Below the pieces are notes generated by a model. It was not told the origin of the DNA and ran no database searches. It saw only the letters and a list, made by a program, of their open reading frames with translations. The position numbers were made by a program, and so were the translations under genes. This document shows positions 16,964-22,080 of a stretch of DNA of 64,000 nucleotides, piece by piece (position 1 is the stretch's first letter; each line of letters begins with the position of its first letter). The DNA comes from Alphaproteobacteria bacterium MarineAlpha5_Bin9 (GTDB lineage Bacteria; Pseudomonadota; Alphaproteobacteria; HIMB59; GCA-002718135), in the NCBI GenBank assembly GCA_002937895.1, contig PTKV01000003.1, positions 43,244 through 107,243 of the forward strand, written 5' to 3'.

Positions 16964-18646
16964 TTAATTGTATGGTTTAATTGAATTAAAGCCCCATTGA
17001 TCCACATTTCTGGTATTTATATCATTGTAAAAAGGTGCTCCATTATAAAAACTTACTCTCAACCATCGATCAGATTTAGGATCAAATCTTGAGGCTCCAA
17101 AAAATGATAGTTTAAATCTCAACATATTAGTAGCTAAAATATTTTTAGCTAATATATTTTCTTTGATTTCAGCATATTGGTAGTCAGATAATGAATGAAT
17201 TCTTCTAACTATTCCTCTAAACTTTGGGTACAAAATTAAAAACTCAGCGATGGTTAAAGATAATTGTTTTTTATTTAATTTACAAAGAAAATTATAAATT
17301 TCATTTACCATTTTCCCAATACCTAAAGGTTGTTCTAATTTCGAACCAGGTTCATTATATCTTTCTCCTAATCTTGGTTCTAATTTTTCTTCTGAAGTAT
17401 ACCAAAAAAGGAAGTTATTATTTTTATTTTTATAATTTATTTGAATTGCCCATTTATAATATTTTTCAATCATTTTTTTAAGATTTCTTACTGTTAAATG
17501 ATTTTTAATTTTTAATTCATCAGAAATAGACATATTTTCAGCTAAATTATCTACTAATTTTGGATAAAGTTCTAACATTTGAACTTTAATAATTTCTTGA
17601 GCATCATAAGAAAATTTATTTTCACAATAATCAATAATATTAGACCAGTTAATTTTATTTAGATTCATTTTTTTTAATTTATTTATAATAATAACTAAGT
17701 CTTTTAGAGCTCTTATATTTTTATTTTGCTGTTGTTTATCAGAGGTTAAAACCTCTTCTAAATATTTTTTTGATTTTTCTAGTAGAAACAAATATTTAAC
17801 AAAAATTTCTTTTTTTATATATCTAATTTTTCTTATCGTCATAATTGCATTTTCATATTGATATACCCATTGGTGAATTAATTTTGGATGCTTGATCAAA
17901 AAAGGGGCCATACCTAAACCTGTAGAATTACCAATTCCCAAATGTTGTTTTATTTCTTTTTGTAATTTTACAGCTTTTTTTGGATTTCGATGGAAAGCAA
18001 TATGTTCTACTAAATCTACACTAAATTCTCTGATAATATATACTGCTAACATTTCTGCTCTAAATGGTTGATTAAAAATTTTGTATTTTTTAGTTTTTGC
18101 AAAGTCAGATAATCCAAATTTTCCACTTCCATAAACTGCGGTCGTTCTAAGTAAATATCCAACTTTATTAATTTCATTTATTTCTGGCTGGATTCCATTT
18201 GATAAAGAATCTACAACTTTTTCAAAAAGTCTAACACTCTTATTAGCCCTACTCAAAACTAATTCTTTAGAAGATGCTCTTCCAGACTCTTGTAAGGGAA
18301 TATTTTGTTTTAATCTTTTAATTGATTTATTGTCAATTTTGCCAACGTGTAAAGTATAAGATGTGTCCCATTTTTCTGCTATTACCCTGTCACTTCTTTC
18401 ACTATCTTTTAAATATTCAGAAAAACATATTAAAGAATATATTTCATTTTTTGCAGTTATTTCATAAATTGCGTAACCATAACCTTTTTTATCTATTCTA
18501 AATTTATTTTTTTTTATTTTCCATTTTTCTTTAATCATTCTTCTTAGCATGCTTCTTGAAAAACTTAATCTTGATGGATATTTTGAACCCATTTTTTCTA
18601 AATTCATAATATTTTTATGTTTTCTTATAGGATTGTTTTGTAGCAT
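16964..18646 (-). CDS. Conserved hypothetical protein, 560 aa, no recognisable domain
   Basis: Long intact ORF, 6 nt upstream of the 230 aa gene on the same strand; conserved-looking motifs 'GSGKFGLSDF', 'FRAEMLAVYIIREFSVDLVEHIA', 'GIGNSTGLGMAPFLIKHP'. Confidence 0.75.
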   Translation of the reverse strand: MLQNNPIRKHKNIMNLEKMGSKYPSRLSFSRSMLRRMIKEKWKIKKNKFRIDKKGYGYAIYEITAKNEIYSLICFSEYLKDSERSDRVIAEKWDTSYTLHVGKIDNKSIKRLKQNIPLQESGRASSKELVLSRANKSVRLFEKVVDSLSNGIQPEINEINKVGYLLRTTAVYGSGKFGLSDFAKTKKYKIFNQPFRAEMLAVYIIREFSVDLVEHIAFHRNPKKAVKLQKEIKQHLGIGNSTGLGMAPFLIKHPKLIHQWVYQYENAIMTIRKIRYIKKEIFVKYLFLLEKSKKYLEEVLTSDKQQQNKNIRALKDLVIIINKLKKMNLNKINWSNIIDYCENKFSYDAQEIIKVQMLELYPKLVDNLAENMSISDELKIKNHLTVRNLKKMIEKYYKWAIQINYKNKNNNFLFWYTSEEKLEPRLGERYNEPGSKLEQPLGIGKMVNEIYNFLCKLNKKQLSLTIAEFLILYPKFRGIVRRIHSLSDYQYAEIKENILAKNILATNMLRFKLSFFGASRFDPKSDRWLRVSFYNGAPFYNDINTRNVDQWGFNSIKPYN

Positions 18647-20527: not shown

Positions 20528-20923
20528 ATGTTTGATTGGAAAAAACCTACCGTACAAATGTTAGGAAGATGGCAACCATGGCATGATGGTCATACAGAAC
20601 TTTTTAAAAGAGCTTTAAAAATAACTGGTCAAGTTTGTATTATGTATAGAGATGTAGGAGGTGTGGACGCAGGTGTTCAAGGACAGGATGATAACCCTTT
20701 TACATTTGAACAAGTAAAACCAAAAATTATAGAAGGTTTAGCTAAACACGGATATGAAGAAGAAAAAGATTTTGTTGTAATAAAAGTTCCTAATATTATT
20801 GATATTTCATATGGACGCGGTGTAGGGTATTCTTTTACCGAACATGATTTAGGTGAAAAAATTCATCTTATATCTGCAACTAAAATTAGAAAAGAACTTA
20901 GATCAAAAGGAAAGCTTAAATAA
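20528..20923 (+). CDS. Small adenylyl/cytidylyltransferase-family protein
   Basis: HxGH-type motif 'GRWQPWHDGHTELFKRAL' and 'ISATKIRKELRSKG' in a 131 aa protein. Confidence 0.8.
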   Translation: MFDWKKPTVQMLGRWQPWHDGHTELFKRALKITGQVCIMYRDVGGVDAGVQGQDDNPFTFEQVKPKIIEGLAKHGYEEEKDFVVIKVPNIIDISYGRGVGYSFTEHDLGEKIHLISATKIRKELRSKGKLK

Positions 20924-20944: not shown

Positions 20945-21325
20945 ATGGATGATGATTTATTTAAAAAAGGATTAAAAATTAGAAAAGAAACATTAGGTGC
21001 TGATTATGTTGAAAAAAATTTAGATAAAGCAGATAATTTCACAAGACCCTTTCAAGAAGCTATGACAGCATGGTGTTGGGGTTTTGGTTGGAGTGATGAA
21101 ATTATTGATTTAAAAACACGATCAATGATGAACTTATCAATGATTGGTGCTTTGGGTAAAATGAGTGAATGGGAAATACATTGCAAAGGTGCTCTTAAAA
21201 ATGGAGTAAGCAAGGAAGAAATAAGATCAATAATCCATGTTATTGCTATCTATTGTGGAATACCTCAATCATTAGAATGCTTTAAAGTTGCTAAAAAAGT
21301 ATTAAAGGACGAGGGGCTGCTTTGA
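20945..21325 (+). CDS. Carboxymuconolactone decarboxylase (PcaC/AhpD-like) family protein
   Basis: 'KTRSMMNLSMIGALGKMSEWEIHCKGALKNGVSKEEIRSIIHVIAIYCGIPQSLECF'. Confidence 0.85.
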   Translation: MDDDLFKKGLKIRKETLGADYVEKNLDKADNFTRPFQEAMTAWCWGFGWSDEIIDLKTRSMMNLSMIGALGKMSEWEIHCKGALKNGVSKEEIRSIIHVIAIYCGIPQSLECFKVAKKVLKDEGLL

Positions 21326-21332
21326 GATAATA

Positions 21333-21464
21333 TCGAGATCATCTGAGTTTATTGTGTGTAGAAGGAACATTGATGATCTCGAAATAAGAATTTGTGGGTA
21401 GAAAAAAGCAATTATGAAACTACCCACAAATTTGATAGAATAAATTGGAAAATTTATTCTATCA
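21333..21464. ncRNA. Candidate structured element: three consecutive perfect-stem hairpins
   Basis: HP1 TCGAGATCATC(21333-21343)/GATGATCTCGA(21372-21382); HP2 AATTTGTGGGTAG(21389-21401)/CTACCCACAAATT(21420-21432); HP3 TGATAGAATAAATT(21433-21446)-GGAA-AATTTATTCTATCA(21451-21464). Confidence 0.55.
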
Positions 21465-21504
21465 CTTGTTACTCCCCAAAAAGACAAGAACAATCAGCTG
21501 ACAA

Positions 21505-21519
21505 TAGAAATATTTTCTA
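21505..21519. promoter_or_regulatory. Lrp-box-like dyad TAGAAATATTTTCTA
   Basis: 13/15 match to the published E. coli Lrp consensus YAGHAWATTWTDCTR, upstream of an Lrp-family gene. Confidence 0.4.
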
Positions 21520-21575: not shown

Positions 21576-21590
21576 TAGAATAATTTTCTA
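21576..21590. promoter_or_regulatory. Lrp-box-like dyad TAGAATAATTTTCTA
   Basis: 14/15 match to YAGHAWATTWTDCTR, just upstream of the Lrp-family start at 21610. Confidence 0.45.
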
Positions 21591-21609: not shown

Positions 21610-22080
21610 ATGTTTAAACTAGATGAAATTGATAAAAAAATAATAAACTTACTTCAAAAGAATGCTAACATTCCTCTAACAGAAATTTCTAAAAGAGTTG
21701 GCATCTCATCTACTCCATGTTGGAATAGAATCAGAAAACTTGAAGAAGAAGGTATAATTTTATCAAAATTTACAGAAATTAATCAGGAAAAAATTAATTT
21801 ACCTATATCAATTTTTGTTTCTCTCTCAATCAACAGTCATTCTGATAAATGGTTAACCAATTTTATTAATGTTATCAATAAATATGATCAAATTACTGAA
21901 GTTTATAGATTAACAGGATCAAGTAGTGATTATTTATTAAAAGTTATTGCACCTTCAATTAAACAATATGATGAATTACAGCAAAAATTAATAAATGAAT
22001 TAGAATTTAACAATATTTCTTCTGGCATAGTTTTAAAAGTAATCAAAAAAAATAATTATATCCCTCTTGATTTTGTTTAG
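21610..22080 (+). CDS. Lrp/AsnC family transcriptional regulator
   Basis: 'LDEIDKKIINLLQKNANIPLTEISKRVGISSTPCWNRIRKLEEEGII' HTH plus RAM domain. Confidence 0.95.
   Translation: MFKLDEIDKKIINLLQKNANIPLTEISKRVGISSTPCWNRIRKLEEEGIILSKFTEINQEKINLPISIFVSLSINSHSDKWLTNFINVINKYDQITEVYRLTGSSSDYLLKVIAPSIKQYDELQQKLINELEFNNISSGIVLKVIKKNNYIPLDFV

Follow-up and report, generated by a model that had tools for sequence, protein, structure and literature searches.

The window (the whole 64-kb stretch of DNA that was analysed) contains a gene of the carboxymuconolactone decarboxylase family (CMD; 20945..21325, + strand; Pfam PF02627, E 1e-17), followed by a gene for an Lrp/AsnC-family regulator (lrp; 21610..22080, + strand; Pfam PF13412/PF13404/PF01037). 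CMD is the final gene of an M19-CysQ-NT-CMD unit, in which it is preceded by an M19 dipeptidase gene, an inositol-monophosphatase/CysQ-type gene, and a small nucleotidyltransferase-like gene (20528-20923). For the last one, Pfam gave no match at E<=0.001, and its naming as a nucleotidyltransferase is based on a motif. Thus, the gene context of the original prediction, with CysQ, nucleotidyltransferase, and CMD before the hairpins and Lrp after them, agrees with our annotation. In addition, the region adjoining the M19 gene (16964-18646, - strand) encodes a 560-aa protein with no Pfam match at E<=0.001, and a homolog of this protein (45% identity) was found near M19 and CMD in L056.

Three perfect stems, to which no strand is assigned, lie together within 132 nt of the CMD-lrp gap, and the first of them begins 8 nt past the stop codon of CMD. 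HP1 (21333..21382; arms 21333-21343/21372-21382) has an 11-bp stem, TCGAGATCATC/GATGATCTCGA, and a 28-nt loop. HP2 (21389..21432; arms 21389-21401/21420-21432) has a 13-bp stem, AATTTGTGGGTAG/CTACCCACAAATT, and an 18-nt loop. HP3 (21433..21464; arms 21433-21446/21451-21464) directly abuts HP2 without a spacer and has a 14-bp stem, TGATAGAATAAATT/AATTTATTCTATCA, closed by a GGAA loop. These stems and loops are exactly those originally predicted. The three hairpins are unrelated to each other in sequence. The G+C contents of the arms are 5/11 for HP1, 5/13 for HP2, and 2/14 for HP3, and the median non-tRNA intergenic region has 19.5% G+C.

On the + strand, positions 21320-21480 (161 nt) fold with -53.5 kcal/mol, compared with -25.7 +/- 3.3 for shuffled sequences (z -8.5). 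The - strand folds nearly as strongly (-51.3 kcal/mol, z -8.0). Both strands are therefore highly structured and the strand is not readable from the folding, which is in line with the caution of the original prediction. It had also stated that there is no clear T-run on the + strand, and the counts confirm this: the 8 nt on the 3′ side of the stem contain 1, 2, and 4 T for HP1, HP2, and HP3, respectively. Of the two features of an intrinsic terminator, the 11-, 13-, and 14-bp stems provide one, a stable stem with G+C downstream of a transcription unit, but the other, a U-run directly 3′ of the stem, is missing from all three on the + strand. The cluster was not among the terminators reported by a terminator scan.

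Clustering and folding strength

To judge the stems against the rest of the genome, we used stretches totalling 807 kb of its 1,231 kb, together with 20 Mb of random sequence from an order-3 Markov model of the window, and a cluster was defined as perfect stems of >=10 bp within 170 nt. The HP1-HP3 locus is the sole cluster of at least two such stems in the 807 kb. The simulated sequence contained no triple cluster, and its double clusters numbered 8 at 10 bp and 0 at 11 bp. Furthermore, five other family genomes (1.1 Mb sampled) had one double cluster and no triple one, so that no other triple was found in 1.9 Mb of family sequence. The density of single hairpins at 10 bp is only slightly higher in the genome (89 per Mb) than in the random sequence (74 per Mb). 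The exceptional feature is thus the clustering of the stems, not the overall hairpin density.

The 807-kb sample has 89 intergenic regions of >=100 nt. Of these, the region of the locus ranks first in folding (z -7.4), above those bearing tRNAs. These results support HP1-HP3 as a real, non-random structured element. The second most structured region of the sample is L136:15047-15526 on contig C5 of the same assembly (G000). It is 480 nt long (z -6.6), lies between uvrB and a dehydrogenase-like gene, has a 10-bp long-loop hairpin in an arrangement different from the HP1-HP3 array, and gave no Rfam match at the gathering threshold.

Searches for homologs

No Rfam covariance model matched the window at the gathering threshold, and lax thresholds gave nothing credible at the locus (best E 0.38, far below threshold). 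A separate Rfam match was seen at L132:17178-17300 (-), to Rickettsia sRNA47 (RF02800; 66 bits, cut-off 60), and this match may be a conserved coding sequence instead of an sRNA. DNA searches, in which the genus was represented by this one genome, found no homolog of the cluster in 110 family genomes, 162 order genomes, or 385 genomes across the class. The family genomes gave short AT-rich partial matches to HP3 (E 1e-4 to 0.1), and the loci inspected had no array. The best order match was one partial HP3-like match inside a long coding ORF. A covariance model, whose reach is limited because it was built from one sequence, matched only itself and its palindromic reverse in the 162 order genomes and the 807-kb sample. 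The Rfam and BLASTN searches suggested with the original prediction thus returned neither a known family nor a homolog. There is no homolog by sequence or structure and no conserved synteny, and so there is no covariation to evaluate. A new conserved structured RNA family is therefore not supported. The original prediction of a novel structured RNA holds for the non-random structure (z -8.5; rank 1/89; 0 triples in 20 Mb) and is not supported for the novel family; it had named a lack of homologs with compensatory changes, together with a lack of a transcript, as evidence against itself, and the homologs are indeed lacking.

We then have to consider whether the array could be an undescribed structured non-coding RNA, such as a trans-acting sRNA, an RNA transcribed from a promoter of its own, or an lrp leader. 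The strongest folding of all intergenic regions sampled and the lack of an Rfam match are consistent with this, and in the small AT-rich genome of Ca. Pelagibacter ubique, long GC-enriched intergenic regions mostly encode non-coding RNAs (PMC2704228). However, the region of the locus, with 24.6% G+C, is just 19th among 80 non-tRNA intergenic regions, promoter-like sites are no commoner there than by chance, and no homolog was found in the order by sequence or covariance model. Furthermore, if the array were an lrp leader, its start would have to precede the conserved operators and promoter-like boxes (see below). We consider a non-coding RNA of this kind quite unlikely. A functional RNA of undescribed kind that is specific to the genus (an sRNA or a processed 3′ UTR RNA from the CMD operon) is similarly improbable, if anything a little more so; its homologs would be hidden only by the absence of sequenced close relatives.

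Searches for further copies bear on a mobile origin. The hairpins stand in series at a lineage-specific gene junction, and AATA is found on either side of HP1, as might be expected of a palindromic mobile element, REP/MITE-like or a transposon end, that is present as a remnant or a lone copy. However, a DNA search of the 1.23-Mb assembly (G000) found no second copy, the only other match being HP3 against its own palindrome, phage records gave no match to the cluster, and the three hairpins have no sequence in common. Such an origin is very unlikely, and a dispersed REP/MITE repeat was rejected since only the locus itself was found in the genome. Viral contigs contained HP2-type arms in three cases and HP1-type arms in one, and the array in none. 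Two of the three contigs with HP2-type arms are the same phage, where the match adjoins a long capsid-like ORF, and in the third a T-run follows the match. One control with scrambled arms gave 0 matches. We treated these matches, which are single terminator- or hairpin-like stems without the array, as chance or convergent, a reading that a single control does not prove.

The gene junction

CMD homologs are present in 24 other family genomes, and the HP1-HP3 array is behind CMD in none of them. In 22 of the 24, what comes after CMD is apparently either a gene on the opposite strand or a short AT-rich gap; the exceptions are L098 and L102, where a same-strand gene begins directly after it. The lrp orthologs of the relatives are located elsewhere, and lrp was divergent from metY in all three cases checked. 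The CMD-lrp neighbourhood was not found in the fetched relatives; thus, the junction is specific to this lineage, with no counterpart of positions 21326-21500.

The result could also be caused by DNA template switching, a quasipalindrome-type copying of a nearby strand, which would have left inverted repeats without selected function in a gap that is free of constraint and was recently rearranged. Perfect hairpins are documented to arise by template switching in one step (PMC8794818), and the stems here are perfect, confined to this lineage, and placed at a junction that the relatives do not share. However, three independent events within 132 nt would be required, and no other triple is present in the family sequence sampled. 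In addition, the position right behind a stop codon is that of functional 3′-end hairpins. We regard template-switch hairpins without function as the main rival explanation, although an unlikely one.

Operators before lrp

Two Lrp-type operators, given without strand, lie between the hairpins and lrp: a distal site, TAGAAATATTTTCTA (21505..21519), and a proximal site, TAGAATAATTTTCTA (21576..21590), with the second-best and the best PWM score in the window, respectively. They are 71 bp apart and have 0-1 mismatch to YAGHAWATTWTDCTR, the Lrp consensus of E. coli. The proximal site fully matches YAGHAWATTWTDCTR on the - strand, overlaps TATAAT-like -10 boxes, and is the sole zero-mismatch site in the 64 kb. 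An equivalent pair, with <=2 mismatches in both sites, precedes lrp in 12 of the 14 family orthologs (L110-L123), and the spacing is 71 bp in 7/14 and 72 bp in 5/14. Furthermore, a matrix trained on relatives only, which included one poorly assigned pair (L117), ranks the two sites of the window first and second. Conservation of sites and spacing is strong evidence for a predicted autoregulatory operator pair of lrp, and lrp is likely to be autoregulated with looping or wrapping. In the CMD-lrp gap, the operator pair is a better supported element than the hairpin cluster.

The arms of HP3 (TAGAATA...TATTCTA) share the half-site TAGAA/TTCTA with these two operators, so HP3 might be an extra Lrp operator and the array a set of protein-binding DNA palindromes. 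However, with the relatives-only matrix, the 15-mers of HP3 score 6.3 (62nd in the window) and 1.8 (227th), whereas the real sites reach 19.7 and 17.7. The half-site spacing is wrong, the relatives have no third site there, and HP1 and HP2 would be left unexplained. A third operator at HP3 is thus probably not present, and the palindrome explanation as a whole is highly improbable.

In the relatives, the gap between lrp and metY (L110:1317-1396 (-) and equivalents in L111-L123) contains a conserved leader, CGGTATTTGATTTTCAGATTGTACRCCGTT...GTACTAAAGAGAAAGG. Against SAM-II (SAM_alpha) and SAM-V it reaches 20-21 bits, which is short of the Rfam cut-offs, and there is apparent covariation in its stem (ACGGT/ACCGT vs ACAGT/GCTGT). 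This leader is possibly a candidate divergent SAM-II/V-type riboswitch of metY.

Discussion

Three perfect stems form a non-random cluster directly downstream of the CMD stop codon and upstream of the conserved lrp operators. Tentatively, we propose that HP1-HP3 is a lineage-specific 3′-end structure of the M19-CysQ-NT-CMD transcription unit. With + strand transcription of the unit, the hairpins would fold successively just past the CMD stop codon, and once folded they could stop or pause the polymerase and/or block 3′-to-5′ exonucleases. The mRNA would thereby end in stable hairpins, and there would be less read-through into the autoregulated lrp promoter ~110 nt downstream. Transcription of the + strand, termination or RNA protection by the cluster, and insulation of lrp are our inferences from this arrangement.

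The genome places compact long hairpins behind stop codons as a habit. Compact hairpins were defined as intergenic, with a stem of >=10 bp, >=3 G+C, and a loop of up to 9 nt; in the 807-kb sample, 9 of the 11 outside this locus follow a stop codon at a distance of 11-32 nt. In about half of these nine (4/9), the 8 nt behind the stem include <=4 T, and a clear T-run is thus lacking. The missing T-run is therefore no argument against a 3′-end role here, and the original restriction of a possible terminator to HP3 is weakened. Among side observations, a gene for a lysine/alanine-rich small basic protein with histone-like repeats (L280:13900-14290) is followed by a strong terminator-like hairpin.

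Since the hairpins are followed by operators and promoter-like sequence belonging to lrp itself, the cluster is at a transcription-unit boundary. An insulating 3′-end structure needs no sequence conservation, and the absence of homologs fits with this. The top rank of the region in folding also counts in favour of such a structure. Against it, no hairpin is followed by a U-run on the + strand, the folding does not tell the strands apart, and the loops of HP1 and HP2 (28 and 18 nt) exceed the 3-9 nt of the other 3′-end hairpins of the genome. Furthermore, a single hairpin would be enough, and the triple is unique in the sample. Because this proposal does not account for the long loops, the lack of U-runs, or the triplication, our confidence in a 3′-end structure stays just short of an even chance. 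Nevertheless, it is the most economical explanation, and the array is most likely ordinary in kind and unusual in form.

If HP1-HP3 is a 3′-end structure, it shows how a streamlined, very AT-rich marine bacterium can fence a transcription unit by stacked hairpins without U-run terminators. If template switching is the cause, the locus is a clean case of new perfect RNA stems arising at a rearranged gene junction. In either case, an extreme folding score in one genome alone does not amount to a conserved RNA family.

The structured intergenic regions of Ca. P. ubique also belong to a small AT-rich marine alphaproteobacterium, but its RNAs are backed by homologs and covariation, and HP1-HP3 is backed by neither (PMC2704228). 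The template-switch hairpins already described are likewise perfect stems in one lineage, whereas here three are found in 132 nt (PMC8794818). As in intrinsic (Rho-independent) terminators, the hairpins come directly after a stop codon and ahead of the promoter of the next gene; the cluster differs in having no U-run on the + strand, three hairpins in tandem, and long loops in HP1 (28 nt) and HP2 (18 nt). The REP/BIME elements of E. coli are stabilising hairpins of 3′ UTRs. Unlike these, the cluster is not repeated in the genome and consists of three hairpins unrelated in sequence, but in both cases a series of stable hairpins in a 3′ region could block exonucleases.
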